Positions 5,659 through 44,128 of a DNA stretch of 64,000 nt are shown piece after piece (position 1 is the first letter of the stretch; each line of letters opens with the position of its first letter). The notes below the pieces were generated by a model. That model was not told where the DNA came from. It did not search any database and worked only from the letters and a program-made list of their open reading frames with translations. Source of the stretch: Citrus sinensis (taxonomy: Eukaryota > Streptophyta > Magnoliopsida > Sapindales > Rutaceae). The stretch is from assembly GCF_022201045.2 (NCBI RefSeq), contig NC_068560.1, positions 29,839,501 to 29,903,500 of the forward strand, given 5' to 3'. A program made the position numbers and the translations under genes.

Positions 5659-7781
5659 TCAAGTTTCGCCTTCAAGATCATGTATCAAGCAATCTATGTC
5701 AGGCTCATAGGCTGTTTCGTTCATATGTCTGATCAACATTTCCAGAACTCCATACACATACTGTGTATGAGATCCCATCTTGTCATTAGCAATAAAACCA
5801 CAAACCTTGTCCCTTACCTCAATCCAACTCATCCCAACCTCTTTCTTGCTCCCCATTCCTCTCATAATCTTCCTAAATTTTGCAAACTCCTCCCATTTAC
5901 CTTCAGCCGCATAAATATTTGACAGAATTATGTAAGTCCCCATAATGTTAGGCTTCAAATCCAATACTCTCAATGCTGCCAATTTGCCTAAGTTTGGAAG
6001 CCTGTGTTCTTTACAAGCACCGAGCAGTGGTCCCCAGACAGACTCATCTGGTTTGAATGGCATACTTTTTATCAGTTCATATGCCTCCTTGACTCTGCCA
6101 GCACGGCCTAGCAAATCCACAACACAGCCATATATCTCTTTATTCGGATTGACATTATAGTCATTCATTGATTTGAAATATTTCAAGCCTTCATCCACAA
6201 GTCCAGCATGGCTACATGCTGTCAGAACTGCCATGAACACAATCCTATCGGGTCTGACACCAGATTTAACCATCTCATCAAACAACTCGATAGCCTCTTT
6301 TCCATGCCCATGGGCTCCATATCCAATCATCATTGAAGTCCAAGTAACCAAATCTCTGTCAGACATTTCACTAAAAATTTTCTTGGAGTCAGATATGTTT
6401 CCGCACTTGGCATACATATCAATGAGGGCATTAGCCAATGCCAAGTTTCCATCAAGGCCTCGGCGAACAATTCCAGCATGAACCTGTTGTCCACAACTCA
6501 AAGCTGCCAAAGTTGCACAGGCAGCTATAATACTGGTAAATGTGAAGCAATTTGGACTAAATCGTTCTGACTTCATCTTTGAAAACATATTGAGACACTC
6601 ACTAGAACCTGACTTTTCATATCCAGCTATTATTGTGTTCCATGTAATCAGATCTTTTTCAGTCATCTCATCAAAGTATTGATTTGCATCAGATAAGCAG
6701 TCAAACCTGCAATACATATCTAATATGGAATTCATTACTGGAAGATTGGATCCAAAACCATGTTTAATTACTGCTGCATGTATTAGCTTGCCAAAACTAA
6801 CCCAGCCAGTTGAGGCACAAGCTCTAACAGCAATCGAAAAGCTATATGGGTTCATTTCTACTCCCTCCTGTTTGCCATAAAACACAACATTATACGTACT
6901 AGATCTACGGCACACATTAAAAATCAAATAATTTAAGGTAAACAAGTTTGTTAAATTAGCTTTTATTTCACAATACTGAACATGCTATTTCTGTTCAAAA
7001 AAGCAAATTTTGCTGTGGGCTACAAACTTAACTCTTCTATTTAGAGCAATATCTTTCTTTAGACTAACCAATCATATCCTTTTCTACTATATTTATTATT
7101 TGTCTTAAAAAACCGAAAATGTATTAAAAAAGCATTAATTTAACTGATTCAATTACTTACCAATAGCATTTCCTTAAAGACGCCAAGTCCTCCATAGCCA
7201 TTACCACTATGAGCGTAGCCAGTGATCAGGGTAGTCCATGACACATCATTCTTCCATTTCATATCATTAAACACCAGACGCGCATTATCCATGCTAATGC
7301 AACACGTAGCATACACGTCCATAAGTGAATTTTCAACGTAAATAGACCCTTCCAAGCCTTCCTTTATAGCCATCCCATGAACCAGAGCTGCATTCGAAAG
7401 GCTCTTCATGCCCTTACAAGCTTTTAGAACGCTCGATAAAGTGAACGCATTTGGGTTTACTTCATTTCTCACCATTTCAACGAACACGGTCCATGCTTGA
7501 TTGTGACAATTAAAAGACGTATACCCAGCAATCATGACAGTCCATGAAACCACGTCTCTTTCGGGCATTTCATCGAACAGTGTACGTGCTTCTTCTATTA
7601 GGCCTTCATCAAAATATGACTTGATGAGATTTGTGGCTAAAATGGAGGGTCCCTTTGGTATTAATGGTGGGTCTGATTGGATAGAGGATTTCTTGACTGA
7701 TTGAAGAGATTGTTTTATTATGGGTGGGATTTTATGGCAGTGAAAAGTGGCGGCATATGATAGCAGTCGTTTAGTTCTCAT
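5659..7781 (-). CDS. PGN: PPR protein orthologous to Arabidopsis PGN (At1g56570)
   Basis: Two exons (7781-7161 and 6867-5659) are joined across a 293-bp intron with donor GTAAGT and acceptor GCAAACAG, in phase 0. They give a 609-residue protein. The join reads MLL|EGVEMNPYSF. Long stretches match my memory of At1g56570, for example 'ATNLIKSYFDEGLIEEAR' near the start and 'FKPDESVWGPLLGACKEH' near the end. The architecture is PLS repeats plus an E domain with no DYW tail. In Arabidopsis PGN is a mitochondrial protein linked to germination under salt and to defence against a fungal pathogen. That role is carried over by orthology only. Its neighbour at 8450-12508 is the orthologue of At1g56560, which adjoins PGN in Arabidopsis too, and this supports orthology. 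Confidence 0.9.
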
Positions 7782-8449: not shown

Positions 8450-11400
8450 TTAGACAAGAATTTGAGACTTTGCGGCACCGCGAGAGCATTTCTTCCGCCC
8501 ACTCTTGCTAAGTGCACAAACACAGATCTCAAGAAGTTCATAATCCTCCTCCCAGAATAACACAGAAGCCATTTCTGGATTCTCCACGAGCATTTTAGAA
8601 GTCAGGAACCCAGCAATAGTCCATGTCTGGAAAAGTCGGGATTGTTTTCCTATAAACCTCCCTGTTCGCGTATCATAATATTCAGGCCAATGATCAAGTG
8701 GAAGCCTATTCTCAGCCAAGGCAACTGCCTTCTGAGCTAATCCTAATCTTCCCATCTTGATGCATGCCAACGTGAACTGAAAATGAAGCAACCATATTAG
8801 GGGGGAAAAAAATTCAGTTCAAGGAAATTGCAAACACCTACAATGCCCATAATCCAGGATATTAGTTTGAATATACAATCAGAGCAATTATCCTGCCTTA
8901 TCTTGATTGTCATTGCCATCTACTTTTGACATCATTATGTCATTGAGTAAAATTGGCTGACTTAACAAATGAACCAAAAAAAATGACACCTTGCGATGCC
9001 CAAATGCATAGTGATTCAAGAAGGAATCCAAGAGAAGGTTGAGTGGAACTTTTAGGCAGAAAAATTCCCAAAAAAATGGAATAAAGGGGCATTGAGCATA
9101 AAAATAGATAATCTATCAGAGGACCCCGTGACAAATAGTTGTTTATCAATATTGTGGCCACTAATTCTAAACGCACGGGCATTACAATTTACAACAGCAA
9201 ATTCATAGTCAAATCTATATGTGCTGAGCATTCCTCAAAAAGCCAAAACAATATACGTAACAATATCTGAGCTTACCTGCCACAAAAGGGTTGGCCAAGA
9301 TCCACCATTATGATATGACCAAGGGCTGCATTGGATCCATCATAAAAATATAATTCAGCATCAATGAAAAATTTCAAATGACCCACAGGACCATTAGCAG
9401 AAGCTATTATCTCAGGATATCCACTAGAGAAGAAAGATGCATTTTATTTGTGTGTGCATGTGCGCAAGAGCACAGATGGAGAACTCACGTGTTCTTTGGG
9501 TCACTTCCAGTGATTATACGCCAGTCTTCTGACTCCAAAGCTGGGTAACATATCTTAAGAGGCATATGCCCGACAAGATCATCCCATTTGGCTTCAATAA
9601 GATTTAAGATAGATTCATTTTGTTTTGGTGTACCTAACGATGAAACAATGGACCATAGGTTTCCAAGTGTAAAGAACCTAAAATCCATGTGAGCTGGCTG
9701 TAGATTGCCAATGAGATACCCGCCTTCCTCTGGTATCCAATCCATTAGCCATGAAGGAATCTGTTCAGGATATATATTGAACTTGTTGGTTGCATCTGTG
9801 GAGTACTCTTCTGTTTTGTATCGATATATCTCATTTATCTTCTTCATATCCACCCAATAATATTCTCTGATATGGAATGACAGTGCACTGAGTCTATTAT
9901 TGATGGCTCGAACTAAATTATTGGATCCAGATCCATCACTAACTGTAAGCATCTCACGGGAGCATCTTAGGGCCGTATAAAACAAGGCCTGCAAAATTAT
10001 ATATGTAAGGTCAACTAAAAGCATTAACAGAGGCAAACGGGAATGATCTAATATCACATGATTCAGCCACGAGATGCCAGATAAAAGAAAGTAGAAAAAA
10101 GATATGGCCTGGTATAGGGAAAAGAATTGGTATTAGAGCATATCAATAAGCACAAAAATGACTAAGGCAGTAAATAAGACAAAAGTAAATTATTCTTCTA
10201 TTACTTCAATGTGCAAGCAAATACTCAGTAATACATGAACCCCAAAATCCAGTTAAATAAGCAGTACTCAGGAAAAGAAGCAAATTAAACTCACTTGGAT
10301 CTCAAGGGGGTGACCATGTATACCCATCCGCCGGTCTATCATGCAGGAGCCATCAGTGACTAGTAGAGAAGGAAACATATCAAAGCCATCAGCTAAACAC
10401 AAGTTCATAATCAATTTTATGCCAGTCTGAACATCCACCCTTTCTTGTAAAGCATAGTCACCAGTGATCTTTCCATATGCCCTCAACAGAATAATCCACC
10501 ACAAACCTACCATCAGAAAAGAAAAGTATAAAAACCAACAAACTCGAGTGTTAATTGCTGCTATAACGGAAAAGAAACCTCTAGGAAGAATAAAAAAAAT
10601 CAGAAGGCAGATAGTGCTATAGTGTGACATCTTTACAAAAAAATGACACAAATTGAGTATTATTTGCATCACCATAAAGTTATAATGTACTAACCAGAAT
10701 CCACAGGTGCAACACGGCCAATTGCTGATTCACCAAAATCTGGATCTAGAACTTCTTCAAACTTATTGCTTTCGAGAGGTACATTTCTAACTTTAAAACT
10801 AGCAGGCATCAATCCCTGCCCTGGGCTATAGCAGTCCACTGTTTTCTCCCAGCTCTACCATGAGAAACTGATTGTAAGTTCAAATCTACCATGAGAAAAC
10901 TATATGGCTACAGTTCGGTAACATGCAATCAATACAAATGGATAACCAACATAGCAAATAGATAATCAACTCCAGGGAGCAGAGAAGCAAGAAAGTTAAT
11001 AAAATGGCAAAATAATAATAGGAACAGTTATTATAGTGACAACAACACCCTCCACCTCCCCTGCTAAGAAGAAATAGTAAATTATTTCAACTAGTGACCA
11101 CTCATCCCCACCCACTCCATACACAAAACCCCAATCACAATGCCAGAAAAGCTCATGATATTTCATTGCTGATGGAAATGAAGATACTTTCCTAAATAAA
11201 CATAATGAAAAGACAGTGACCATGCAACCACATCAATTAAACACCAAAATATTATCACTAAAATATTCTAAATTCCAAGGAGGGAAGAAACTTGCATTTA
11301 ATACTCAATCATCGATCAAAAGCAGGCTTCATTTTTGGGAACAGAAATCATTTACTTATGAGGCAATTAGAAACTAGATAAAAACAGAGTTGAGTATCTC

Positions 11401-12508: not shown

Positions 12509-14767
12509 AACAAAGAAATGATTTTGATTCAACAACAAAAACAGATAACGCAAAGCATGTGTAAAAAAGTTTGAATCTTTATGAATAAAATACAACGAGT
12601 AGGTTAAAAATGAAAGATTTTCAGAAGATAATTGAAAGACTTGCAAAAATAGAAAGTAAGAGAAGGATTTGTGATTCGGAGATGAGGATTTGGTGAGAGA
12701 AAATGGCGTCTAAAATTATAGCAGGCCAAGGATAGTTGCAACAATAGGGGCTCCCTTCTTTTTCATATATAGGCTTCGATGTTAGTTAAGACTTATGAAA
12801 CTAGCCGAGTTTTGTGCAAAAATAAAATTTGTTTTCTGCCCATTTTTAATTTGTCTTTTTTTAAGTCTAATTTCTATTTTAATAAAATATTTAATAGAAG
12901 AGAGGGATTGAGGTTAGCAGATAGAAATAGAATGTGGAGTTTTATGGATGAATGATGAAATTAACCAGTTCATTAATTTCTATTTAAACTTTAGGCAAGT
13001 CGTAATTGTAAGTCAATGATGCTATATATAAGTCTTTTGAATAGGACAAAACTACGTTACAGAATCTGTAAGGTACAGACTGCAGCATCAGCCGTTGGAT
13101 GTGGTTGGATGTGGAGTGAGAAACTAAACAAAAGAAAATCGGATGGTGGGATGACGGGAGATGTTTGTTACAGAATCTGTAACATAGACAGGTCCCTTTT
13201 GAATATATTGAATCAAATAAGCAAATTTTTTTTTTGGGGGGGAGTACTATTCTTGCGTAAAAAGTAAAAGCAAATAATCTCCACCTTGGTTGCTTCAATG
13301 AAAGATTTGTAATGTGGAGACAAGAGGCAGATAGTATTGGTGACGTGTAAAGGGCGTTTGCTATCCATTATACTTATATTTTAATTTTTCGTACCCGATT
13401 CTTTTCGACCATTGACTTCTTGCCACGTTTCATCACTTTTGTGGGTTCATGACTTTATTGCCACGTGGAAAAGTGCAAGAAAAATTTGAAGATCAATCAT
13501 AAATGGAAATGGTGGTTCTTACTTCTTAGTTCTTATCTACATAGGGATCGCTCTGTATCAATCCACGTTGTTATCATGGCCAAATGGTTGCAGCAAAATC
13601 ACAGCCAAGCATTGTAAACAAGCACATGGTTTTTGAGAAGAGTAATGATACAGCCACAAACTCTTGTACAAATTTATTTTGTACAAACTGACGTGACATT
13701 AATTCATTGGTTGAATGAAAATATAAATTAATAAAAACAAATCATGTGGGTCAAGTGATATTTAATTCAACCAATCTTATCATGCCACATCAATTTGTAC
13801 AAAATAAGTTTGTACAAGAGTTTGTGGCTGTATCATTACTCTTTTGAGAATGGAGCAAAAGCCAACGACTTGTTCAACCAACATTTGGGCAATTTTAGCT
13901 TCAGGGGTCACTTTCATGGAATGAAACAAACTGCACATCTCCATGCTCTGCACATGTTGGTTTACTCGCTTATGACAATTGATAAACCAACTATAAAGTT
14001 TTACATCATCTTATCTTAATCCCACAATTGTAACAGGTGCTCTTGGTAATATTTTTTAATGAGTGTTTTTGGCTCTTATTTTATATAACAATAATTATTT
14101 TTTTGATGTGATGTCTTTTAAAATAAAATTTTATTTAGTAGTTTGTTTTCAAAATAAGATATGAAAATGAAAATAGTAAAAATGTGTTTAAAGTTGTTTG
14201 TTTAAAAATATAATTTGTTTGAAAATATAGAATTTTCTTATAAAATAGTTTTCTTCACTAAATTTAAATAAAGTAATTTAAAATAAAGCATCATTATTCA
14301 TTCATATCAGGTAAAAATTGTTAAAAAAAAAAAAGAGTGATCTTCATTTTATATTTGATATAATACAAAATTATATAAAATTTTAATGAACATAAATATT
14401 ACCTGAAACTTGGCTATAGTTGAAGAGATTTTTACGACTGAAGAAGAAAAAGATTGTAGTTGAATGCAGCAAATGGTTACAAGAGAAAGAATTGCTAATG
14501 AAATAAAATAATGATTAAATAAACAAAAGAAAGTACACCACCTTTTTCCTTAACTTTTTTTTTCTCCATTTTTGTAAACAAATTGGCGTTCTCAACGTTT
14601 GTTCTCAGAAGTTTATTTTGTTCTTTAAATTTTTCGGTGATTATATCAGGGAATGATCTTATCAAACATATTTTTGCAATTTTAATTAAAAACAAAAAAT
14701 ACCCAACACAATGTGTTAAGTGTGTTACCAAACTCATCTTTATCTTTTGTCCGAATCTCCACAACCC
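12509..14767. other. intergenic region between invertase and PNSL1 (divergent promoters)
   Basis: The two genes diverge, so both promoters lie here. A motif GTTACAGAATCTGTAA, nearly palindromic, occurs at about 13053 and again at about 13167, and may be the ends of a small element. A palindromic MITE sits at 13639-13842 (listed separately). The remainder is AT-rich with no gene that I can support. Confidence 0.5.
13639..13842. mobile_element. 204-bp foldback MITE
   Basis: The ends form a long, almost perfect inverted repeat of about 49 bp, beginning AGAGTAATGATACAGCC and returning as GGCTGTATCATTACTCT. TTTGAGA flanks it on both sides (13632-13638 and 13843-13849) as a target duplication. The interior is AT-rich and non-coding. 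The arms are nearly identical, so the insertion looks fairly young. I cannot name the superfamily from a 7-bp duplication alone. Confidence 0.8.
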
Positions 14768-15145
14768 AATGAGAGGCTGTGGAGATATAACCCAAAAGTG
14801 AAGTGGGTCAGTTTCTTATCCTCACTGCAAGCAAGGAAAAGTGGGCTAATGGGCAGAGTCGAAGCCTCTCAAAAATCCTAACACCAGCCACCACCACCGC
14901 CATCAGCAATCAGCATGGCAAGGATGGTGATGATGCAGCACCAAACACACCCTTGTTTCTCTATCCTTACTTCTACACTCTCTGGCTTCAATGGTGCCAG
15001 CCTCCATTCTCAAGTCCGTCAGCAGCAGCAGACTCCACTGCCAAGAGAAGCACTTCACGTTACAGCTTCAAATGAAAAGAAAAATCCTGTCATGGCCGCT
15101 ACTCAATTTGCAGGTAAGACTCCTAATCGAAGAGGGTTATGAGGT
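14768..15145 (+). repeat. copy of the CSP41b 5' UTR and first two coding exons (intron 1 absent)
   Basis: This block aligns with 26502-26777 plus 26955-27093 of the CSP41b gene. Shared landmarks in order are AATGAGAGGCTGTGG, AGTGAAGTGGGTCA, the ATGGCAAG start, GCAGCACCAAACACA, GACTTCAATGG/GGCTTCAATGG, TTACAGCTTC, GAAAAGAA, AAGACTCCTA and AGAGGGT. Over the first 99 coding bases I count about 21 differences, near 79% identity. CSP41b intron 1 (26778-26954) is missing from the copy. The homology runs past the PNSL1 splice donor into what is coding exon 2 in CSP41b, which shows the direction of copying. Confidence 0.85.
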
Positions 15146-16171
15146 ATCAGCCATCCCTTTTTCTCTTTATGATTTTCATGATAAATATCGAATTCAAGAC
15201 TTTGTTTCTTGTAAATATCTCATAAATTCAATCCTGCATCCATTTGTCCCATTATCCGATAAACAAATTCCTCGTGAAACAGGGCAGTCGCTGTAGATAT
15301 CAACTGAATTTTCTTCAAGTTCACTTGCTACAGAACCTATAATTGGCTTCTCACTATACATTTTCTTAAGGCTTTTGCAGTTCCAAGGAGGAATGCAATG
15401 GCATTGATCTTATCGAGTTATATCTTCTCGGATTTTGGTTTTCGCAACACCGCATTGGCTCAACAATCTGTTGGGTTCAGGGAATACATAGACACATTTG
15501 ATGGTTATTCATTCAAGTATCCTCAGAACTGGATTCAAGTCCGAGGTGCCGGCGCTGACATTTTCTACAGGGATCCTTATGTTCTTGATGAAAATGTTTC
15601 TGTGGAACTGTCCTCTCCATCGTCTTCTAGGTACAAGAGTGTCGAAGACCTGGGCCCTCCTCAAGAAGCTGGAAGGAAAGTACTCCGGCAGTATTTGATA
15701 GAGTTTATGTCTACAAGACTTGGAGTCCGGCGTGAGTCTAACATTCTTTCCACTTCCTCGCGGGTTGCTGATGATGGCAGGCTCTATTACCTAGTCGAGG
15801 TAAGCTGTTTTTGGTGTTGGAACATCACACAGCTGTTAGTAACTAGGATTTTCATTCTCTCATTATTTGAGCTTTGACTTGAGCATGCATAAACTTGTAA
15901 TTGATAGTTTTCTTGTGATAGCATGTTCTGAAAATTCATATGCCATCAGGTGAACATAAAGTCATTTGCAAACAACAATGAGCTAGCTGTGATGCCGAAG
16001 GATCGAGTAGTTAATTTGGAATGGGACCGGCGGTATCTTTCAGTTCTTGGAGTTGAAAACAACAGGTTGTATGAGTTGAGATTACAGACGCCAGAAAATG
16101 TATTTGTAGAAGAAGAGAATGATCTTAGGCAAGTTATAGACTCCTTCAGAGTAAATAAGGTTTCCGCTTGA
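14915..16171 (+). CDS. PNSL1: PsbP-like protein PNSL1 (PPL2), thylakoid NDH lumenal subunit, with captured transit peptide
   Basis: Exons 14915-15113, 15381-15799 and 15950-16171 join in phase to give 279 residues. From residue 67 the protein matches the PsbP-like subunit of the photosynthetic NDH complex (Arabidopsis At2g39470): 'YIDTFDGYSFKYPQNWIQV', RGAGADIF, 'EFMSTRLGVRRESNILSTSS', 'NELAVMPKDRVVNLEWDRRY'. VPRRN (67-71), a hydrophobic run and ALA-Q (91-94) form a twin-arginine lumenal signal. Residues 1-66 do not look like a normal PNSL1 leader. They match CSP41b, including its ASSEK..ILIMGGTRF segment, here changed to ASNEK..NPVMAATQF. The donor CAG|GTAAGA lies within that copied piece. 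The chimeric leader therefore has a stromal transit peptide from CSP41b and the lumenal signal of PsbP. The ATG at 14915 corresponds to the CSP41b start. No stops are seen, so it is probably functional; whether another PNSL1 exists elsewhere is unknown. Confidence 0.9.
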
Positions 16172-16598: not shown

Positions 16599-19391
16599 TC
16601 ACGACCTCACTTCGTATTCACCTGCTCGTGTTACAGCTCGAAAACCTTTGTAAAGACGATTTGGGACGTTCTGTAGATCCAGTTTATCAATTTGCAAGCC
16701 AGACAGGGCGACACCCATAATCCTAAATTCGACTTGAAATGTAGGAAATACACGAAGAGTCTCCAATCCTGTCTCAAGCACCATTGTTCCACTCAATGAA
16801 GGGGCTTTATCTTTTGGAATTCTCCCAATTGACCAAGTGCAAATCTGCATGTTAATGACAAAATAAACAATCAAATTCATCCTTTTGTCCAAAAATTAAA
16901 AGAGAGAGAGAGAGAGAGAGAGGAAGGAAGGAAGGAAAGAGGGGTGAGGGTTGGGAGGGACAAAAAAACCAGCATGGATTCTATAAAAATTCATGCATTC
17001 TCTTTTCCATGCCCCAGGTATATGCCAAAACAAATTGCAACTGCTAAGGCAGACCAGCAGCAGCTAATGTATGCAAATGGTTCCAAATGAGTACCTTATT
17101 GGAAAGAACATTCACTGTTCCATGATTTGAAGTCAGATCAGCTGATAAAATGCAAGGAGGTAATTGAAATTGCAGTATTATGGAGTCGATTGTCTTTCCA
17201 GGATCATTTCGTATTCCAACCATCACACTAATGCGACATGTTCCAGCATCGGAGGTTAGCTGCGGCTTTACATATATTGGGGTACTTTTCAACTTTTTAA
17301 CCCTGCATAAAGGTAACTGCTTTGTCAAATAATGCCGTATATTCAGTGTCAGGAAGGTGGCTGAGAAAAAGCAGGCTCATACATGCCTTGATAAAATACA
17401 AATACATCTACCAAACAGTTGTTTTAAGCTTCATTATACAAGACTGCATTAGTAGGGTCAATACCCCAGTCAGTATCTCATACATTTCCCATTCAAAGAA
17501 GAAAATTTAAGAATGAATTCCTCATTAACACCACTCACCTGTAACTCATGAGCTTAAACTGTCCATCAGGAGGCACAAATGACAGAATTTGATGGGACTC
17601 CCAAGGTCGAAACCGAACACAGGGATGAAATCTCACATCATGCAAGATAGATGGGTTTGCAAAAGAAAGAGTCAGATCAGGAAGACCTGAAAGGAGGCAG
17701 TTCACTTGAACTTCACCATAAATCTCACATTTCACCAATACCCCATCCCTGAACCGTGCGTGCAAAAGAGAAAATTGCTTAGTGCTGTAGTACAAAAACC
17801 ACTCAGTAAAAAGTATGAAAGTACAATATGGAAAACTTGGATAATTAATCCAACCAAAGCATTGAAGTACTTCTAACTAAAAGTGAAGTTTGAGCCAAAT
17901 GTAAGGATAGATATACACCTATTTATAATTGCATCCATTTCTTCGACAAGATCAACGTATACTTCATTGTTAGCATATTTCACATCTGTTGGTCGCCATG
18001 GCACACAAGATGCTGTTGCACCTGGCAGGATGTCACTCACATTAGAGCTGTTCCCAGTCACAACACTCAACATTTTGCTAACAATATTTGGTGGAGCTAT
18101 CATTTCTCTAAGGATGTTAGGTTCTGTAGTGAGCGGGAAGCCATTGTCTATCATCTCATCCAAAAGCTGTCACTCGTAATCAGTATATTTGTCAGTAAAC
18201 ACAACAACACTTTATAAGAAAACAGAAGCAGCATTTAACTATCATCAAAAAGCCTATATAACAATAAGAAATAATGACGTAGTGAATTGAAGGAAGAGTG
18301 AAAACTGTGGACTGAGAACTTTCTCATCTTCTACCATTTTTAATGAGAAGACAAGATAAATTAACATGTCAGTAGTGCACAACTTTATTGCTACCTACTT
18401 ATCTACATCTGCAGAATGTATTTAAAATAAGTTGGAAAAGAATAGCAATTGAAATAATGCCTGGCACAAAACATGAAATACCTCGTAAACAATGACAAAG
18501 TTATCCTTGATCAAATCTTCATTCAACTCACCAAGGTAATCTGAGAGGATATCAGCAACCCTACAAAGGAACTAAAATATCAAGTACATAAAGGTCAAGG
18601 ATCTAACATGCTCAACCAATAAATCATCTCATTCTGAATTCTAAAACACATAGAATTTGAACATTTACCTCAATACCCATCAAAGGCGGCATTTCAACTT
18701 GGGTGCAAGCTAAAAAGGTAATCCCCGCTCGAACGATTTGGAATATGTAATGTGTTGGTGAAGCAATTACTGGCATCGACTATCAACAAACAAGTAAAAA
18801 TTACATATAATACCAAACAGCAAATTCAGAGAGCATCTAAATCAACTTGAATTGCAATTATCAATCAAGACACAGAGAAAACTTGATAGATAAAAATGAG
18901 CCAGGCCAGCATAAAACTACAAGATACAGACATCGGGAACATATATCTGCTAAATAAACTTAATTCGACTAAAGCTGCATGTATATAAAAACAACTGACT
19001 ATTTGTCAAAACATGATCAAAGAAACTTCAAAAACAAAAACTAAAACAACTTGAAATGCTTTAACAGTGAAAATTAGACGAAACACAAGCATAGGTACCT
19101 TGAAGGAATCACCTTGAGAAATAACATGATCCCAAAACCAATCACAAATAGATCGGTCAACGCGATGCCCAGTTAGCTGTTTCTCCAGTATCACCGCTCT
19201 GTTACAGTTTCAATTCCAACAACAAAAATCAATAATTCAAGCTCAATTCAGACCCATTTGATTTAGTCACTATAAAAAGGACTAAACTCTGAGAACCCAG
19301 AGGATAAAATGAACAAAATTTGATTGAAAGGAAGAAATTTTGGAGATGAATCTTACCCATTATCAGCAAGAAGAAATATACACTGCAACAT
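16599..19391 (-). CDS. AP3M: AP-3 adaptor complex mu subunit (ZIP4/AP3M, At1g56590 orthologue)
   Basis: Eight exons are read with consistent phase: 19391-19357, 19198-19099, 18779-18669, 18571-18482, 18166-17919, 17748-17539, 17302-17095 and 16844-16599. They sum to 415 residues, the same length I recall for the Arabidopsis protein. The N-terminal longin-like domain starts MLQCIFLLADNGAVILEK and runs through 'CTQVEMPPLMGIEFLCRVAD'. The mu-homology domain follows: 'DGVLVKCEIYGEVQVNCLL', 'RPWESHQILSFVPPDG', 'NDPGKTIDSI', GRIPKDKAPSLSG, and the closing LYKGFRAVTRAGEYEVRS. It is the cargo-binding medium chain of AP-3, which sorts proteins from Golgi or endosomes to the vacuole. The first exon is only 35 nt. 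The (AG)n tract at 16901 lies in the last intron. Confidence 0.95.
16901..16937. repeat. (AG)n/(GAAG)n microsatellite
   Basis: About 11 AG units are followed by GAAG units inside AP3M intron 7. It is likely polymorphic in length. Confidence 0.85.
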
Positions 19392-24351: not shown

Positions 24352-25053
24352 TAGGGGTGGGCATATTTTAACCGAACCGATCCAAACCGATCCAAACCGA
24401 CCTTTTGGATCGGTTTCATTAGTAAAAAAATTGGTTTCGGTTTATTGGATTGCAAACCGATATCACTCGGTTTGAATTTCGGTTTGGAAAGATTCCAAAC
24501 TGATTCAAACCGATCCAATCCAAAAATATTATATAATTACATTATATTTTAAGTTAAGCAATCTAACTAATTATATTTATCATTTTATGCAGATTTTGAC
24601 AAATCAAAAGTAATTGGGCTATAAATTTTGACGGACAAGATGCACAATATTTTAATTGTCAAATGTTGTTCAAGTTTATTTTAATTTTGTGAGTTTGTTT
24701 TGAATAAACAAGTTAAGAATTTGTTTATTAGAATGTATTATGCTGTAAACTTGTATGGATGTATCTTTGAATTGTTATGTAGATATCAAAGTAGATATGA
24801 ATAATATAAAAGAGGTATCAATTTAGATTACGGACACAAAAAAATAACAAATAATTTAGGTAAAATAATATAAAAGAAGTGAAATTTTAGCTAATAAATT
24901 CAAACCAGATCCAAACCGATCCGGTCGATTTGGATCGGTTCAGTTTGAAAAAATTTTAGGTTGATATCGGTTTGAAAATATTTCAAACCGATTAGTTTGG
25001 ATCGGTTTGAGAATATGTCCCAAACCGATCCAAACCGAATTTGCCCACCCCTA
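24352..25053. mobile_element. non-autonomous hAT-type element with AACCGATCC subterminal repeats
   Basis: Perfect 12-bp ends TAGGGGTGGGCA and TGCCCACCCCTA are flanked by a perfect 8-bp target duplication GTCTTGCA (24344-24351 and 25054-25061). Both subterminal regions carry many copies of CCAAACCGATCC or its complement, which would pair the two ends over more than 100 bp. There is no transposase ORF. It inserted exactly at the acceptor of the SDI1-like exon that follows; removing it restores CTTGCAG|GG. Confidence 0.9.
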
Positions 25054-25061
25054 GTCTTGCA

Positions 25062-25470
25062 GGGAAATTTGGGCTGGGCCTACATGCAAAAATCAAACTT
25101 CATGGCAGCCGAGATATTGTATCAGAAAGCCCAAATGATTGATCCGGACGCCAACAAGGCATGCAATATGGGCCTCTGTCTAATCAAACGCACCAGATAC
25201 AACGGAGCGCGTTCGGTACTGGAAGACGTGTTGTACGGTAGAATACCCGACTCCGAGGATGGCAGGACTAGAAAACGGGCCGAGGAATTGTTACTGGAAC
25301 TGGAATCAAAGCAGCCTCAGCCCGACTTGTCGGATATTTTAGGCCTCAATTTAGATGACGAATTTGTTAATGGGCTTGAGGAGATGGCGAGGGTATGGGC
25401 TCCATCAAGATCCAAAAGGCTTCTCATCTTTGAAGAGATTTCTTCCTTTAGGGATCGGATTAGCATGTTA
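25062..25470 (+). pseudogene. 3' exon remnant of an SDI1/MS5-like TPR gene
   Basis: The reading frame (GNLGWAYMQKSNF, ILYQKAQMIDPDANKACNM, CLIKRTRYNGARSVLEDVL, FEEISSFRDRIS) matches the last exon of the SULFUR DEFICIENCY-INDUCED 1 / POLLENLESS3-MS5 family, whose members carry TPR repeats. About 130 codons survive without a stop. The upstream exons, which should carry the start and first TPRs, are not found between here and ECH. The normal stop after the RDR.. ending is gone, and the frame runs on into the next element. A hAT element sits on the acceptor and a Mutator-like MITE begins just after the exon. I read it as a dead fragment. Distant exons spliced across the hAT cannot be fully excluded. 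Confidence 0.75.
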
Positions 25471-26200: not shown

Positions 26201-26672
26201 TACTATTTATGGAATCAAAGAGGGTGTCAATAAAAATTATCTATGTTTCAAATTTTTTTATGGGGTATATTTGGAAAAGGGTTTTAAGAGGATAATGGTG
26301 GAGTGCCAATAGTACAACTCTCAGAACAAATGTGTATGCCATGCTTATGGGTTGGATTGAGCTGTTCATTTGTCCAAAACAATTGCCCAATGGTCCAATA
26401 TTTTTGCTCTGCGAAGTTCAGAGCCATGTACTGCTGACAGTTTTTCCACCAGGCAACAAACATTCAACATAACAGAAAATAGAGGAGGTGATGAAATATA
26501 GAATGAGAGGCTGTGGATATAACCAAAGTGAAGTGGGTCATTGTCTTATCCAAACTGTAAGAATGAGAGAGAACCCAGGAGTGATGAAATGGGCACAGCC
26601 AGAATCTTTCAAAATTTCATTAAACCAAGTCCCTCCAATACCAAGTTGAGAGGCAGAGGCTAAGCAGCAACC

Positions 26673-29600
26673 ATGGCAAGCACGGTGGTTGTGCAGCACC
26701 AAACACAGCCTTCTTTCTCCACCCTCACTTCGTCTCTTTCTGACTTCAATGGCACTAGAATCCACTCTCAAATTCAGGTCCCCTCATCTCTCTTTCTCTA
26801 TATCGCATATTAATAATTTAACCTTGATATGTTAAAAGTTGTCAACGACTATGGTATTGCTGATTTTTAGTGGTTTTAGTTTCTTGTCTACTTGAAAAGT
26901 TGCCAAAAATGAATTGTAACAAAATTCTCGATATGTTACATATACATATAGCAGTATAGGAGAAAGGTGTTGCAGCCAAAAGTAGGGCTGCAAATTACAG
27001 CTTCTAGTGAAAAGAACATTCTTATAATGGGAGGAACTCGATTCATTGGTGTATTTCTTTCAAGACTCCTAGTCAAAGAGGGTCATCAGGTATATGAGTA
27101 TTGCCAATTTCTTGTGTTTTCTTGTTTCCATTTTTTTTCCCCCCATATTGTTGTATCGGGTAAGTTTTGAGTTCATATCACATTGTTCTCAATTCAATTG
27201 TTTCTTTGGCAGGTGACCTTGTTTACTAGGGGAAAGGCACCAATCGCCCAACAATTGCCCGGTGAATCAGACCAGGAATTCGCCGAATTTTCTTCCAAGG
27301 TATAATTACATATGTTTGAAAAGTGTGTTTGACATATTGGATTACCTTTCAAAGGTGTGAATTAGCATGCAACAAGTATTAAAGGTTTTTTATTAATTAT
27401 TATTTTTTTCCCAGATCTTGCATTTGAAAGGAGACAGAAAGGACTATGATTTTGTGAAATCCAGTCTCTCTGCCAAAGGCTTTGATGTTGTTTATGATAT
27501 AAATGGTATGTCCAGTCTTATTAGTGCACTCTTTTTTAACTAACAGACTGTAAATCTCACTCTCTTTTCTTCAACATATTGAATATTTTTTTGTCATATC
27601 TTCAGGACGAGAGGCAGATGAAGTCGAACCCATATTGGATGCACTGCCAAATCTAGAACAGTATGCTAAAGATATTTATAGAGTTTAATTAGCTATTTTA
27701 AAAGTCATTTCTTTCATTTTAACCCATCAGGTCTTTAGTAGGGTTAATAGTTAAACATTTTTTAAGTCTTTTAAATAAGATGAATTCCAAAATTTGACAT
27801 GAAGTTCCTTTAATACTGTTAAGAATACAGATCAAATTGGAATGGGCACAGTTAAATAATAAATTTTGCAGAAGAGAAATCCCACTCAGTGTAGATAGGC
27901 ATGTCAACACTGATGGTGAGCAAAAAGTGAAATAGCTTGCTTGATTTAGTTGAATAGATAATTAAATAATAACATGGATATATTTAGTTGCGTAATGTCT
28001 AACAGTACTACATTCCTTAGAGTGAAGAGGCTGAAAACCTTCATTAGCATGTTAGTAATGAAGTTGGCAGCAAATAAATTGAATAGTATGAGCTAACAGG
28101 ATAGATAATCAGTATTTCCAAGAACCTTCCGTTTATGCTTTTATATCTAAGCTCACTAACAATCCTTTCATTATTTTTCATGATCTCAAACAATTAGGAA
28201 ATCTCTTTTCTGCTGATTCTCAGGTTCATCTACTGCTCCTCAGCTGGTGTTTATCTAAAATCTGACCTTTTACCACACTGTGAGGTAAGTCCATAGATAT
28301 AATTTTGTTTTAGAATGCTTAAACCAAAGATTTTGATGTAATGAAATTTTTGACACAAAATCATTTGTAGCTTGTCCAAATGTATTCGGGGAGATCTTTT
28401 GAAAGTAGGAAACCAAAGTAGTTGCATTTAACATTACTAGCATATCAAAACAACTTTTTTTTCTGAAGTTTATACCCTCCTCTTTGTTGAACGGCCCTGT
28501 TAGCTCATTAGCTAGTGCCATTATTGAGAGGTCTGAAGATTTTCCTTAGGCTAGGGCTGAGTGCATAGTCTGAATATAATTAGTGTCAACTACTCTACAA
28601 CCACAAGTAATAATGAGTTTCAAGTTAAATGATGAGACTACCCTCTCTGTTTTTTGTTCTTCCACTTCAGCCAACCCTTGCCTTTTCTAGTCCAGTTTTG
28701 GCTTCTAAAATTTCATCTTTTCCCCTGCCATACACTCTGAAAGCAGAAGCTCTATTATACTCTAGCATGCTGTTTTCTTCCCATGTATTTCTCATGTGGC
28801 TGACGGTGGTTCTGCACTTCTGCCCAGTGGTGTGAGATTTTAAATATTTGTTACTTGCAAAAATGGCGAAACTGTTGCCAACTTGTTTTTTCTTTTCATT
28901 TATGGTTATTGCTATGTTTTCGTAACTTGGTGTTTCTTTCTTAATCTAATTTTCCCTTACATATCTTCTAATCAATTATCTGCTGATTATTAGACCGACA
29001 CTGTTGATCCAAAGAGCAGGCACAAGGGAAAGCTTAATACAGAGTCCGTACTGGAATCAAAAGGCGTGAACTGGACTTCTTTAAGGCCAGTCTATATATA
29101 TGGTCCCTTGAACTACAACCCTGTTGAAGAGTGGTTCTTCCACCGTTTGAAAGCAGGTCGCCCAATTCCAATCCCAGGCTCCGGAATACAAGTAACCCAG
29201 CTTGGTCATGTAAAGGTTAGAAAACTATAAATCTCTATTAATTGCTCATGTACTTCGAAGCAGCTCTTATATGAATCACTTTAAATCAACTTTTCATATA
29301 TAAATATATAATTAGGTTTATTTCTCCTTTCTAGAGAAATTATAGCCAAATAAGAAGTTAGTTTGCAAGTAACTCCAGTTAAAATTTTAACAACAAGAGT
29401 CACCTCTATTTGATAATTTCTATACAGTGTACATACTACTAAACCAATGTTCTTCTGCTAATAGTCGTCCACCAGTGCTTATAATATTTGTAAAAATAAT
29501 GTCTATAGTAAGATGCAATTTTACAATTGCAGGACTTGGCTAGGGCCTTTGTTCAGGTTCTTGGTAATGAAAAAGCCAGCAGGCAGGTATTCAACATCTC

Positions 29601-30435
29601 AGGAGAGAAGTATGTCACCTTTGATGGATTAGCCAGGGCATGTGCAAAGGTGACAGGGTATTGTATTGCTGGTAGTGTCGAACATAGAATGCCAGATGAT
29701 TGAAGTTAACTAACAGAAAGATTCTCTCATTTTCTATTTTATTTTTCCTCAGGCTGCTGGATTTCCGGAGCCTGAACTTGTGCACTACAACCCCAAAGAG
29801 TTTGACTTTGGTAAAAAGAAGGCTTTTCCATTCAGGGACCAGGTAATTGCAAGCTTAAAAACTGCATTTTCAGTCAACATGGTTAAGAGATCGATGCTGG
29901 CATTCTATATTTGCATATAATCCAAAAATCTTGGAGACCTTGAAAAATAGCATTATTCAATACTCCTCTGAAAATGATATTCAAAGGATAAGGCTCCTAT
30001 CAAGAAGAAAATTCTTTAAGGTGAGATCAGCATCTAGAAAGTAGAAACTAGGAACTTTTCATGGTAATCTTTTTCTTATTCATCAACATGGTCAAAGGTT
30101 ACCCAGAAATGGAGGAGAAATGTTGTTTCCAAATTTGCCATTTATTTTAGCATGATGGTTTTTCAGCCAATATCATTGTTATCACCTTGCCAAAATCAAA
30201 GGAAAATTTTTGGGAACTTTTTATTTTATTTTATTTTTGTGTGTAATGCATGCAGCATTTCTTTGCGTCAGTTGAGAAGGCAAAGCATGTGCTCGGATGG
30301 AAACCTGAGTTTGACCTGGTGGAAGGTCTTGCAGACTCATACAACCTAGACTTTGGCAGGGGCACATACAGGAAAGAGGCTGATTTCTCCACAGATGACA
30401 TGATTCTCGGCAAGAAACTCGTTCTTCAGGCCTAG
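26673..30435 (+). CDS. CSP41B: chloroplast stem-loop binding protein CSP41b (CRB, At1g09340 orthologue)
   Basis: Ten exons are read in phase (26673-26777, 26955-27089, 27213-27299, 27415-27505, 27606-27660, 28224-28284, 28994-29215, 29533-29649, 29753-29842, 30256-30435). They give 380 residues, against 378 recalled for Arabidopsis. A transit peptide of about 50 residues precedes an atypical SDR/NAD-epimerase fold with the nucleotide-binding loop GGTRFIG (61-67). Further blocks are 'KGDRKDYDFVKSSLSAKGFD', IYCSSAGVYLKS, RPVYIYGPLNYNPVEEWFFH, 'NISGEKYVTFDGLA' and the C-terminal 'FASVEKAKHVLGWKPEFDL'. The protein binds and stabilises plastid RNAs and associates with stromal ribosomes, affecting photosynthesis and circadian output. 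Its 5' end is the source of the PNSL1 leader at 14768-15145. Confidence 0.96.
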
Positions 30436-33100: not shown

Positions 33101-33427
33101 TAGATCTAGAATTGTCTTGTTGTAACCGTCAGATCTAGTCGGCTGCCACACGTAGAGTGCGATCTCTTTGGTGGAAAGATAACGCATTCAAGTTTTGAGT
33201 AACGGCAGTCAAGCCAATACAGTTGCAAGTCAAATACCCAAACGTCGGCGTTTCGCTCTTAAAAGCGGATAAAGTATTTAACAAATCTTTGTCCTTTAGC
33301 GATTTTTTTTTTTTGACTGGGTGGGAAAAGATTTCAAACAGATCAGCTTTCCCTAACCTAGAAAATTCATTAATTAAAAAAACCAAAATTTCAGTTTTTT
33401 TCCAGAATTACACCAACCCCGAATTCC

Positions 33428-33435
33428 TATAAATA
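33428..33435 (+). promoter_or_regulatory. TATA box of galactinol synthase
   Basis: TATAAATA lies 193 bp before the ATG. A C- and A-rich leader with no upstream ATG clearly in use follows it. Confidence 0.7.
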
Positions 33436-33620
33436 CATACCCCCACCATCCCCTTTATCCTCACATCACAAAACACAAGAACCTTAAAAGAAAAAACACT
33501 CATTTGTCTTCAAACAACCTTCAAAAAGTCTCCTTCGTTTTCTGTCAATCCAAACACTTTCACTCACTCTTCTTCAATACTCATTTCATATCTTCACTTC
33601 CTCTCAGAACCCTTTTCACC

Positions 33621-34865
33621 ATGGCCCCTGATATCACCCCCACCACCATCACCAAAACCACTTCCCTGTCCAAAACACCAAGTCTGCCAAAGCGTGCGTA
33701 CGTCACGTTCTTGGCCGGCGACGGTGACTACTGGAAAGGAGTCGTTGGCTTGGTTAAGGGCTTGAGAAAAGCCAAAAGCAAGTACCCTTTGTTGGTCGCA
33801 ATGCTCCCTGATGTCCCCGAGGAGCACAGAAAAATCCTCATCGAACAAGGTTGCTTCTTGAGAGAGATCGAGCCTGTGTATCCTCCTGAGAATCAGACTC
33901 AATTTGCCATGGCCTATTATGTCATCAACTACTCCAAGCTTCGTATTTGGGAGGTAAGCTGTGTTTTTTCCTTTTATTTTAATTTTTCCTTTTTTGCATG
34001 TGTTACACGTACGTACGTTCCTTTTTTTCTTTTTTTTTTGTCGGTTACTAATTTGGTCACTGTCTTTGCAGTTTGTGGAGTATAGCAAGATGATATACTT
34101 GGATGGTGACATACAAGTGTTTGATAATATAGACCACCTGTTTGACTTGCCTGATGGATACTTTTATGCTGTGATGGACTGCTTCTGTGAGAAGACGTGG
34201 AGCCATACCCCTCAGTTCAAGATCGGTTACTGCCAGCAGTGCCCTGATAAGGTCAAGTGGCCAGCTGAGCTTGGCCCCAAGCCTGCCTTATACTTCAACG
34301 CTGGCATGTTTGTGTTTGAGCCAAGCCTCTCCACTTATCATGATCTCCTTGAGACTGTCCAAATCACTACCCCGACCTCTTTTGCCGAGCAGGACTTTCT
34401 GAACATGTACTTCAGGGACATTTACAGGCCCATCCCTCCCATTTACAATCTTGTCGTTGCCATGCTCTGGCGCCACCCAGAGAACGTTGAGGCAGACAAA
34501 GCCAAGGTCGTTCACTATTGTGCTGCTGTAAGTACCATATTATGACTTCGCTTCATGTTTTCATAAATTAATTTAATATATCTTGTCCTCGTGATGTAAA
34601 AAGAAATCTGATGATTCATTTATATATCATAAAGGGGTCTAAGCCATGGAGGTTTACTGGCAAGGAAGAGAACATGCAGAGGGAGGACATCAAGATGCTG
34701 GTGCAAAAATGGTGGGACATATTCAATGACGAGTCACTGGATTACAAGAACTATGTGCCTCCAGATGAGGATGCTGAGGACGAGGCCGCGAGGGCGCAAC
34801 CGTTCCTGATGGCACTTTCGGAGGCCGGTGTTGTTTACTACGTTGCCGCCCCGTCTGCTGCTTAG
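33621..34865 (+). CDS. GOLS: galactinol synthase (GT8 family)
   Basis: Three exons (33621-33953, 34072-34527, 34635-34865) give 339 residues. The enzyme transfers galactose from UDP-galactose to myo-inositol, the first committed step of raffinose-family oligosaccharide synthesis, in the cytosol. Diagnostic features are RAYVTFLAGDGDYWKGVVGL near the start, the metal-binding DGD (122-124) in MIYLDGDIQVFDN, CFCEKTWSHTPQ, 'FNAGMFVFEPSL', 'FAEQDFLNMYF' and the family's hydrophobic C-terminal APSAA. The start MAPDI fits other family members. An in-frame ATG 39 codons upstream is preceded by the TATA box but would add an untypical leader. Arabidopsis GolS2 (At1g56600) and GolS3 (At1g09350) sit beside the orthologues of this window's neighbours. 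Confidence 0.96.
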
Positions 34866-36069
34866 AGATGGATTGATGCATGCATGGCTAGTTGAAAGTT
34901 GGAAATATGGAAGCTAATTATTATATATTAAGTTGCATAGGAGTATAGTTTTTTCCCCGCCTCAAAAAAGCAAAAAAAAAAAGAGAATTTTTACTCTGAT
35001 TGTGCTGGTGGCTCTTCCTTATGGTGGAAGAAGAACACCTACTTCTTTTCTTTTTTTCTAAAAATGTATTATACAGGAGGTTGAGGTTTTAATTCAATCC
35101 TCCTTTTTGTAATTGTCTGGTTTGTTAATTATTTTTAAATTAATATATGAACAAATATTCAGTGTATAATTGGTGTACATGCTCTTTTGTTTCGTTTGCT
35201 TATATGTTTGTTTATTTCTTCCTTTCCTTTGTTTTTTCTTTTAACCAAATGAGCTGTAATGGGATTCGAGGGATCTGAGTTCAAAGCTTGTAATCTATTC
35301 ACAGAAGTTTTAATTGAAGTAACTTGTACAATCAATAGCTCAGTCAAGTTGGCAAAGACATTCGAGCTCAATAAAGAAGAGGAAACGCATACACAGTACG
35401 CGTAACACAACTACAAATTTTAGGTTGTGTTATGAGCCATTTAAGTATTTAGGGATTTATCGCAGTGTAGAAGCTCCTTGTCCTTGATGCCATATCTATT
35501 ACAAAACTTGCAAAATCACTTGGGATAATTCAGCAGTTGTATGAAAAATACACAAAACTACTGAAAGATTTCGAAAGTTTAGTTGTCTCTGGTATGAATC
35601 TCGATGAAGTCTGGTTATTGTTACAAATGGTTGAATAACCACAAGAAAACCTTCTTGATCTGCTTTTTCTCAAAGGATTCATGATGCCAATCTCAACCGC
35701 GGGATTCGATAATTTTTTTAGTATCTTATCATCGCAAAATTCTACGCTGCGACATTTTGGTGAATGATATATAATGTTGTTTTGCGATCCAGTGCTTTTG
35801 TGGTGAAGATTCAATTTTTTGATGAGAAACGTGGTTGAGCATCTGGGATTTCGTGTTTGAATTTTGTCGTACTCTTTACATCAGTAGAAGAAACTGGATT
35901 AAGGAGAGTTTTTGATGAAATGAATCAACAGTGTTAAAATAGACTTTTGTTAATCGTGCTCTTTCACATTGTTATTTATTCAATTAATCATCATTTCGTG
36001 GATTAGTCGTTAAACTTACAGGGAGACAGCGATGGCCCCATACAGATACATGGAAAACACCAGTTCCTA
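34866..36069. other. galactinol synthase 3' flank and intergenic DNA
   Basis: The first 150 bp or so is probable 3' UTR. I recognise no gene, RNA or delimited repeat in the remainder. Confidence 0.45.
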
Positions 36070-38465
36070 GCAAATGAAAGATCAAGAAAACCCCTGAATT
36101 TGGAATCAATATCTGAAGAAATTAAAAGATCCATGTTATTGATTATCTCGAAGTATCTATGAAAATTTTATTAAGAAAACTTAGAATGAAAGAAGTACTG
36201 ACTACATTATTATTCCAAGAGCAATATTGCCCAATCGTTCAAACAATAATATTAATCACTTAATGGTATCCTAAAAATTTGCTTCAGCACCTTAACCAAG
36301 TTCCAGTCTTTACGAGACATATCAGCCTGGAAAATTTGAAGCAACCGTAAACATTTATTAAATTTAAAAACTAAGCTTTCAATTACTTTATTTATTATTT
36401 TACTTTAAAATATTTATTTTCTTTAATTTATCTATGATTATAACAACTTATTTTATTATTAAATTATTTTTAATTACAATAATTTAAAAAATAAATAAAG
36501 TCTAAGCCCAACCCAAACCTGCAATCAGCCCTAGCCACCACACGCCCCCATGATTTAATTAAGGTGGGCTTAGATCTGAGGTTGAAAAAACCCGGCGAAG
36601 TCCGCTTTATGCTACCACTATACAAAACATTTTTTGCATCTCCTCAGAAGTCAGAATTGCTTCCTTCTATCTGGAAGACGACAAAAGCACCCAGTTATAT
36701 CAATTCCATCAAGCTTAAAAGCAAAACACAGCACTCATTCGTACTTTATCCTACCAGAAGCATGCTAGAATATACCACAAAAGTGAGATCATCGCGTTCC
36801 TTGATGGATACTTCCTGGCCTTTCTTGGCAGCATCAACAGGTTTATCGTTGTTCTTTATTGATGCAACTCTGCCAACATCAATAAGCTCATTCTCTCGAG
36901 TAAAACAAATTGGAGTTCCAACCTGTACAGAAATTGGATAAAAGACATCATGAGAGATGATGAGCTGGCCACAAAAGAGCAAGTAACCCAAAACGGAGAT
37001 ACGATAATTATACCTTTACCATGCCTTCAAGAACAACAATCCCCAGTATAACTCGATCTTTTCTCCCAAAAATGAGTGAAATCTTGAGAACACATGGGGA
37101 GACTGCATCCGCAGCAACTTCCCTCTTCTTCATCTCCATGATATTTTTAGTATAAGCTTCAAGTTGATTATATAAGTGATAAATTGTATCAGCATTGAAA
37201 ATCTTCACACCCAGTTTATTTGCAAGTTCCTGAGCCTCCGGTGTCACTTTGACATCAAATGCCAAGATAGCCGCATACTCCTTTTTCTTGTCAGGCATTG
37301 TGCTGGCCTTTACCACATCCTTCTTATGCACAGGACCTGTGCTTATATCCCTAACAGGAATGCTCATTTTTTAGGACACGAAAAATGCCAGCAGTGCTTC
37401 CAATGAGCCCCAAGTAGATGCTTGCATACAAACTCCCTCACAAGTTTTGTCAACCTTGCTCCTGACTGATTTCATACCTTCCGAAGCAGCTTCTGTGACA
37501 GATTTCATCTCTTCCATAGCTGCTTTCTTGACGTCTTCCAAGTCATCATTGGGACCAACCACATACAGACTCGTGCCTGCAATAGCATCCTGGAGGCCCT
37601 GCATTATGATATAAAATCTGTATGAAACAGATAATTCTTTTGACGCTTTGAAAGCAGAATAATTTGCCACTTCATGGAGTTGCAAAACTAAAATTGACGT
37701 TAACAGCTCTGCTCTGTACGTTAACAATTACCCGAGCGGTGATCTTAATACCCTGTGCAGCCTTGATTTCTTCATGATGCTGATAAGCACCCTGAAATTA
37801 AACAGGCATTGAATCATCGTGATGGTCAAAAGAGTAAAAGATATACTACTTTTGACATAGCCTATTAGCCTTAACAAATTTAGGAAAAACTGGATGCAAA
37901 AACATTGAAATATAGGATGCAATCCGAAAAGGTGAAGTCAATTCTGAAAGAAATCAAAATTACCTTAACTCGGAGTTCCTTCATTGGATGGGGAGTCAAT
38001 AAGGCTTGAATTTTGGCAACAATAGGTTCCTACAACGAAAATTTTTATTCGTGAGATATAGAAACAGCATTCCATTAGAAATATGCACAAGAGGGATTTT
38101 CGTATGCTTGCCTGTAAACCACAGACCACAATTTTATCTCCTTCGTGAATACCTTTACCTCCAAAATTGTACACCTGATTATGCAGAACCAAAAGAAAAT
38201 AAGAATTCTCATTTCCATATGACAGTAAAGCACTTACATTAGGTGAGAAAAAGGAAAAGACAAACCTGGACTTCATTTCTGAAGGCAAGTTTCTTGACCA
38301 TTGTTTTCTGAGTCCAATGAACCAGTACTAATAACAAACCAGGAATGCCTTCTCCAATGTATCATGGCAAACAAACAAACAATGTAATCAGGATAGTCAC
38401 CAAAGTTAATTTAAGATATTTGCAGGTGAAATACATGCAAGAAGTCATAATAGAGCTAGACATAC
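36070..38465 (-). pseudogene. truncated duplicate of the eIF5B-like gene (C-terminal half)
   Basis: The sequence is collinear with 43930-46275 and very similar to it, including introns and flanking non-coding DNA. It is therefore a DNA-level direct duplication about 7.9 kb away, not a retrocopy. It covers the exons after the GTPase domain ('[20 protein letters not shown]', '[18 protein letters not shown]', '[20 protein letters not shown]'). Damage relative to the other copy: an in-frame TAA after LAFFVS (about 37373), loss of about 50 bp in the exon near 38145, replacement of the penultimate exon by a mobile-element fragment (36345-36625), and loss of the final stop codon position. No start or G domain is present. 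I consider it dead. Confidence 0.85.
36345..36625. mobile_element. fragment of the hAT-like family seen at 63414-63915
   Basis: A run starting TTTATTTATTATTTTACTTT and ending AAATAAATAAAGTC is shared with the right half of the 63414-63915 element. Here it interrupts the pseudogene where the other copy has an exon. The right part holds AAGGTGGGCTTAG and CCCGGCG, compatible with a decayed end of the same family. Both termini are uncertain. Confidence 0.55.
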
Positions 38466-43929: not shown

Positions 43930-44128
43930 TTTCTAACAAATGAAAGATCAATAAAATCCCAGAATTTGGAATCAGTATCTGAAGAAATTAAAAGATTCAT
44001 GTTATTGATTATCTCAAAGTATCTATGAAAAATTTATTAACAAAACTTAGGATGAAAGAAGGATCGACTGCATTATTCCAAGACCAGTACTCAACTGCAC
44101 AATCGTTCATAGCACAATATTCATCACT

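Follow-up and report, generated by a model that had tools for sequence, protein, structure and literature searches.

A probable replacement of the first exon of citrus PPD1 by the 5' end of the neighbouring CSP41b gene

The citrus PPD1 (PsbP-domain protein 1) gene has at its front a diverged copy of the CSP41b 5' end. CSP41b itself lies intact 11.6 kb downstream in the same orientation within the window, i.e., the whole 64,000-nucleotide stretch of Citrus sinensis DNA analysed here. The copy, at 14768-15147, corresponds to 26502-27093 minus CSP41b intron 1, and it takes in upstream DNA, the start codon and the transit peptide, continuing through CSP41b exon 2 to the old splice donor. We consider it very probable (roughly 0.85) that the original first exon of PPD1 was replaced by this neighbouring sequence, which brought upstream DNA, 5' UTR and transit peptide together. 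The citrus chimera is real; it is older and wider than first proposed, and such chimeras were probably made several times. No earlier report of a PPD1-CSP41b chimera appeared among the open-licence PMC titles listed.

Homology, gene identity and splice anatomy in citrus

Self-BLASTN of the 64-kb window aligned 14768-15013 with 26502-26771 (69% identity, E 2e-21) and 15040-15147 with 26975-27093 (68% identity, E 4e-6). A query of 14700-15160 against the whole genome (300 Mb, 11 contigs), a search in which repeat counts are lower bounds, returned itself, the CSP41b 5' end and no third place. Once CSP41b intron 1 (26778-26954) is taken out, a single local alignment spans 14768-15147 with a score of 170, as against a mean of 20.7 (sd 2.5, maximum 29) for 200 base-shuffles; under a second scoring scheme the real score was 990 and the shuffles averaged 376 (maximum 466). 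The earlier note had claimed that exon 1 and about 147 bp before its ATG align with the CSP41b 5' end, so that leader, 5' flank and start codon are CSP41b-derived. BLASTN and the shuffles bear out its coordinates, the pairwise alignment of both blocks that it proposed is significant at the two E values given, and the DNA alignment confirms the derivation of all three elements. Its account of the extent of the match was right up to the coding exon but stopped short, since the match continues past the donor into the intron; it had also not seen that the copy is without CSP41b intron 1, while the homology itself stands.

Conservation varies along the copy (identities are over ungapped columns, with all-column figures in brackets). 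Conservation is highest in the upstream block 14768-14833, at 56/62 or 90% (85%), and all DNA 5' of the ATG gives 117/141 or 83% (66%, with many gaps). The coding segments 14915-15019 and 15020-15113 are identical at 82 of 105 (78%) and 63 of 91 (69%) positions, respectively, and the intronic relic at 29 of 34, or 85% (74%). The upstream block holds GATATAACC and CTTATCC, which we take to be candidate TATA-like and I-box elements, and its being the best-conserved part fits a moved promoter. Over 66 leader codons, comparison of PPD1 with CSP41b gave dN 0.33 and dS 0.80 by NG86 and 0.38 and 0.57 by YN00, and over the first 34 codons dN 0.19 and dS 0.59; these values compare two genes and are not attributable to PPD1 alone.

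The recipient gene is PPD1 and not PNSL1, the name given by the earlier note. Many of the 120 homologs listed (of 549) are named ‘psbP domain-containing protein 1’, with E 1e-110 or better. The spliced citrus protein matches Citrus unshiu protein P0001 at an identity that rounds to 100% (one residue different, by eye); this record has the same CSP41b-derived exon 1 and contains a PsbP domain (PF01789, 136.2 bits). A twin-arginine lumenal signal, identified by eye, precedes mature PPD1 (AVPRRNAMALILSS...TALA). PNSL1, an NDH lumenal subunit, is likewise PsbP-like and lumenal, but its similarity to the citrus gene is weak: solved PNSL1 chains match at E 3e-7, 2e-6 and 2e-4, as against 3e-18 for a generic PsbP chain. 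In the genome, the PPD1 mature domain finds one locus, with two matches that are its exons 2 and 3, so that the chimera is the sole PPD1 seen in this Citrus genome; whole-genome searches returned neither a second PPD1 nor other CSP41b 5' copies.

Within the copy, CSP41b exon 1 runs straight into exon 2, intron 1 being absent (junction near 15019/15020), and the donor GTAAGA at 15114 arose from a net 11-nt deletion immediately before it, in former exon 2 (Table 1). This donor is of phase 1 and pairs with the acceptor at 15381, which lies 10 nt downstream of the usual start of exon 2. CSP41b introns 1-3 and the usual PPD1 acceptor are of phase 0 and therefore compatible; the citrus join is of phase 1 and uses the shifted acceptor. 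In most listed non-chimeric PPD1 proteins the leader meets exon 2 as K/AFAVPRR in phase 0, and citrus DNA keeps a phase-0 AG acceptor at 15371 that matches this place. The frame and splice sites give one protein, as annotated in Citrus records. The 279-residue citrus protein takes the second (phase-1) acceptor, and annotated C. sinensis isoform X2 (P0004, 257 aa) takes the first: acceptor 15371 combined with an out-of-frame ATG at 14991 reproduces 60 printed residues. Isoform X2 thus reads 14991-15113 in another frame and has a different leader on the same mature protein; in our view this model derives from a frame-shifted transcript.

Table 1. Features of citrus PPD1 and CSP41b (positions in the window; slashes mark splice sites)
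Feature	Position	Strand	Basis
CSP41b-type upstream DNA / 5' UTR before PPD1	14768..14914	+	self-BLASTN, alignment; promoter role putative
PPD1 exon 1, CSP41b-derived: start codon, transit peptide, first residues of former mature CSP41b	14915..15113	+	alignment, Citrus record P0001
Relic of CSP41b exon 2 and old donor (GAG/GTAT), now intronic	15114..15147	+	alignment
10 nt between phase-0 acceptor (AAG/GCTTTTGCAG) and phase-1 acceptor (GCAG/TTCC) of exon 2	15371..15380	+	
PPD1 exon 2: twin-arginine lumenal signal (~15383-15460), PsbP domain start	15381..15799	+	
PPD1 exon 3 with stop codon	15950..16171	+	
CSP41b upstream DNA / 5' UTR, source of copy	26502..26672	+	self-BLASTN, alignment
CSP41b exon 1 (transit peptide), ends in phase 0	26673..26777	+	
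CSP41b exon 2 (acceptor GCAG/TATAGG), ends in phase 0	26955..27089	+	
CSP41b exons 3-10	27213-27299, 27415-27505, 27606-27660, 28224-28284, 28994-29215, 29533-29649, 29753-29842, 30256-30435	+	

Some Myrtaceae models join QQLP to VPRR or VSRR, from which we infer, on protein sequence, use of the same second acceptor. By a rough tally of what stands ahead of the twin arginine, 108 of 130 proteins were of AFA type and 22 were not, a figure that mixes acceptor use with other RR motifs. An old PPD1 first exon was sought in the window by TBLASTN with the first 70 residues of 17 other-type PPD1s and did not appear among the best 25 matches, which comprised PPD1 exon 2, CSP41b exon 3 (via an insert in the Francoa query) and elsewhere none better than E 0.004; this search is uninformative because other-type leaders diverge fast. 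TBLASTN likewise gave no match to CSP41b exon 3 in citrus PPD1 intron 1.

Several other features lie in the surrounding DNA. Pfam matches indicate an adaptor-complex medium subunit between PPD1 and CSP41b (17047-17876, minus strand), a neutral invertase and a PPR protein upstream (8453-8818 and 5662-6984, both minus) and a glycosyltransferase family 8 protein downstream (33378-34082, plus). Self-BLAST also found a 1.9-kb direct repeat (36621-38463 and 44367-46276, 90% identity) and a second pair at 36053-36353 and 43919-44220 (87% identity). In Citrus sinensis, record P0122 (524 aa) couples a TPR-like fragment (~25015-25392) directly to CSP41b exon 2 (region 26955-30435) and bypasses exon 1; it holds about 53 residues beyond the CSP41b model used here and may be a gene-model error.

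Distribution of the chimera and number of captures

The distribution was assessed in 134 PPD1 proteins drawn from the best 120 of 549 and the best 120 of 704 matches. Leaders were scored in 131 of them (P0103, P0253 and P0254 were not cut by the pattern) against a CSP41b profile built from 107 of the 120 listed CSP41b matches (370-390 aa). Thirty-seven leaders matched with E 2e-6 or better, and the next stood at 0.27; this proportion (37/131) is not a natural frequency, because the queries favour chimeras. Among the 37 are unnamed entries and species represented by more than one model; the named genera number 21: Citrus, Pistacia, Acer and Xanthoceras (Sapindales); Eucalyptus, Syzygium, Rhodamnia and Corymbia (Myrtaceae); Prunus, Malus, Pyrus, Rosa, Rhamnella, Cannabis, Humulus, Parasponia and Ulmus (Rosales); Vigna, Arachis and Stylosanthes (legumes); and also Lonicera. 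The event is not confined to Citrus, and the earlier framing is incomplete in this respect. At the other extreme, a CSP41b-like leader is not general among PPD1s: many of the remaining leaders are of the type MATILDSLPPP...TKAFAVPRR, and those of Magnolia, Tasmannia and many eudicots do not match that of CSP41b.

The captured portion differs among lineages. In Eucalyptus and Prunus, CSP41b exons 1-3 are joined to PPD1 exon 2, a larger capture than in citrus; Pistacia retains the end of CSP41b exon 2; the Xanthoceras match is limited to the exon-3 part, and that of Corymbia is without the exon-1 part. In Vigna the fused part resembles CSP41b exons 1-5 or 1-6, with exon limits taken from citrus. 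In Francoa, a piece of CSP41b exon 3 (29 aligned residues) comes after a PPD1 leader of the other type. Chimeric models outside citrus, and the Vigna one in particular, may be gene predictions.

A tree of 19 chimeric leaders and 37 CSP41b N-termini, from which three of 22 chimeric rows (Acer, Xanthoceras and Lonicera; long or short, with very long branches) were dropped before clade tests, placed several leaders with the CSP41b of their own lineage. With lengths of 57-178 aa these leaders are short; citrus has residues in 44% of the alignment columns, and several branches are long. Myrtaceae leaders grouped with Myrtaceae CSP41b (98/88), legume leaders fell within Fabales CSP41b (95/87), and the Vigna leader grouped with Psophocarpus CSP41b (95/78); three Sapindales leaders lay near Sapindales CSP41b, weakly (87/51; 87/81 with Solanum). 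The Citrus and Pistacia leaders formed a clade (97/96), which dates the citrus event to their common ancestor or earlier. Forcing all 19 leaders into one clade cost 46 log units and was rejected (AU p 0.0036). In further tests, with groups chosen after seeing a tree, one clade of Sapindales and Myrtaceae was rejected (p 0.0096) and one of all but Vigna weakly rejected (p 0.033); single clades were not rejected for Sapindales with Rosales (p 0.29), Rosales (p 0.41) or the two legume groups (p 0.35), and the number of captures is uncertain for this reason. The leader tree required six changes, of which starred branches force three (also six, with two forced, when Acer, Xanthoceras and Lonicera are included). 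An independent tree, of mature domains from 81 of the 134 PPD1s, with 21 coded chimeric and Francoa and Sesamum coded non-chimeric, required seven changes of leader type, three of them forced by starred branches; in this tree Vigna and Lonicera sit among other-leader PPD1s, which for Lonicera is the one indication of an independent capture. Judged on these sequences, similar chimeras probably arose more than once.

Linkage of the two genes, judged outside citrus from locus tags, varies. PPD1 and CSP41b tags are 1-3 apart in Malus (FF1_010242/010240) and Pistacia (Patl1_22453/22456), and likewise 1-3 apart, without a chimeric leader, in Bauhinia (L6164_010430/010428 and 034935/034934), Psophocarpus (VNO78_18266/18264) and Cinchona (ACH5RR_001675/001676). 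Tags are far apart in Stephania (three species), Oxalis, Acacia, Escallonia, Hibiscus, Populus x canadensis and Vitis piasezkii; Ulmus has the chimera, yet its tags are far apart as well. Arabidopsis (At4g15510) and tomato (Solyc01g106090) PPD1 are the same kind of mature PsbP-type protein (PMC11449065, PMC10493611), and by locus number PPD1 and CSP41b are on different chromosomes in these species (PMC10493611), unlike in citrus.

A single ancient capture in an early eudicot, followed by loss in many lineages and by conversion of the leader from the adjacent CSP41b, is the main rival account of this pattern, and we regard it as a tentative and rather unlikely reading. Loss would mean that the old first exon came back into use, provided that old and new had persisted side by side as alternatives, and gene conversion could mimic separate captures by giving leaders a lineage-specific look. 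Sapindales, Rosales and Myrtaceae all have the same kind of fusion, in which CSP41b exons are joined to PPD1 exon 2; Francoa indicates that the two leader types can coexist; close tags in several genomes would allow conversion; and the clade of Sapindales and Rosales was not rejected. Against this reading stand the rejection of one clade of 19 leaders, the position of Vigna and Lonicera in the mature-domain tree, the exons 1-5 or 1-6, rather than 1-3, that appear in the Vigna fusion, and the many losses needed.

Mechanism and direction of the transfer

Repeated local DNA duplications most likely fed CSP41b leader exons into PPD1 intron 1. In the proposed sequence of events, a duplication would have set the CSP41b front (exons 1 and 2 and the intron 2 donor, and in relatives a larger part) within PPD1 intron 1 or ahead of it. 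A tandem duplication with one end in PPD1 intron 1 and the other in a CSP41b intron could do this in one step: the CSP41b front exons would come to lie ahead of PPD1 exon 2 and on the same strand, with the join in frame because the phase-0 introns match. Phase-0 introns on both sides also fit the exon shuffling that the earlier note had proposed. The old PPD1 first exon would then have fallen out of use. In the citrus lineage, intron 1 of the copy would have been lost, and the net 11-nt deletion would have made the phase-1 donor, paired with the second acceptor. In the resulting protein, the CSP41b leader would direct import to the stroma and the PPD1 twin-arginine signal transfer to the lumen, while the copied upstream block probably supplies the promoter. 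Similar captures would have occurred separately in several eudicot lineages.

Retroposition, i.e., the copying of a spliced CSP41b mRNA in front of PPD1, would explain at once why CSP41b intron 1 is missing from the citrus copy, but later loss of the intron explains this too. The copy reaches 147 bp before the ATG (171 bp in CSP41b), with its best-conserved block there, a point whose force partly depends on the start of transcription, and the match ends at the exon 2 donor (GAG/GTAT) with no exon 3 after it. Because both upstream DNA and the old intron-2 donor are present, a spliced-mRNA copy is disfavoured, and we judge it very unlikely. DNA duplication from CSP41b to PPD1 is the direction indicated by the distribution of the leader, which is general in the 120 listed CSP41b matches (of 4281), including magnoliids (Tasmannia, Aristolochia), and is without a match in the PPD1s of Magnolia, Tasmannia, Nelumbo and many eudicots, so that CSP41b was rightly named as the donor at the outset. 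The reverse, with PPD1 as the source of the CSP41b leader, or descent of both leaders from a common old one, has nothing for it beyond the similarity itself and is extremely unlikely, given this distribution and the dead end of CSP41b exon 2 in the citrus PPD1 intron.

PPD1 intron 1 and the exchange of transit peptides

Other pieces seem to have entered the leaders of some predicted PPD1 proteins. The Sesamum PPD1 leader contains a TatA/Hcf106 segment (PF02416, 40.7 bits in P0082 and 28.6 in P0093; cut-off 21), and P0108 looks like these two; the segment is present although PPD1 has its own twin-arginine signal. Lonicera PPD1 (P0042) carries a DnaJ-like piece (24.2 bits, below the cut-off of 27.8; E 4e-5) after the CSP41b-like start and just before PPD1 exon 2. 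Escallonia PPD1 (P0242) aligns with this piece after a different first exon, with no Pfam DnaJ match and 13.5 bits only in NCBIfam. The Sesamum and Lonicera cases suggest that PPD1 intron 1 may be a general leader trap. On balance we lean towards a recurrent trap of this kind, in which the pair of acceptors 10 nt apart, seen in citrus DNA and deduced from protein in Myrtaceae, would take either donor phase. CSP41b captures (upstream DNA, seen in citrus only, and transit-peptide exons) would then have been independent in at least Myrtaceae, Sapindales with or without Rosales, Vigna and Lonicera; Sesamum would have gained a TatA segment, and Lonicera, perhaps Escallonia too, a DnaJ-like exon.

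Two known systems offer comparisons. In Populus, Euphorbia and Viola, rpl32 acquired its transit peptide from SOD1 (Cu-Zn superoxide dismutase) by exon shuffling or fusion (PMC8018952, PMC8429499), and as in citrus a plastid protein thereby got its transit peptide from the gene for another plastid protein. However, rpl32 was newly moved from the plastid and needed a first leader, whereas PPD1 is an established nuclear gene whose leader was replaced, and the PPD1 swap brought upstream DNA, came from a neighbour and appears recurrent. For chl-fus (chloroplast EF-G), intron phase was proposed to allow transit-peptide recruitment (PMC4522979); that recruitment was inferred from phase and the abstract names no source gene, whereas the citrus source is CSP41b. 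In Arabidopsis, PPD1 is a photosystem I assembly factor in the thylakoid lumen, and its loss is lethal on soil (PMC11449065).

The rpl32-SOD1 and chl-fus cases present transit-peptide capture as a step for genes moving from organelle to nucleus. In PPD1, a long-established nuclear gene, the leader, and perhaps the promoter, seems to have been replaced several times by the same partner. These chimeras may serve as natural replicates in which to compare local duplication with selection for shared expression as the force behind such swaps, and they bear on how freely transit peptides exchange ahead of a twin-arginine signal.
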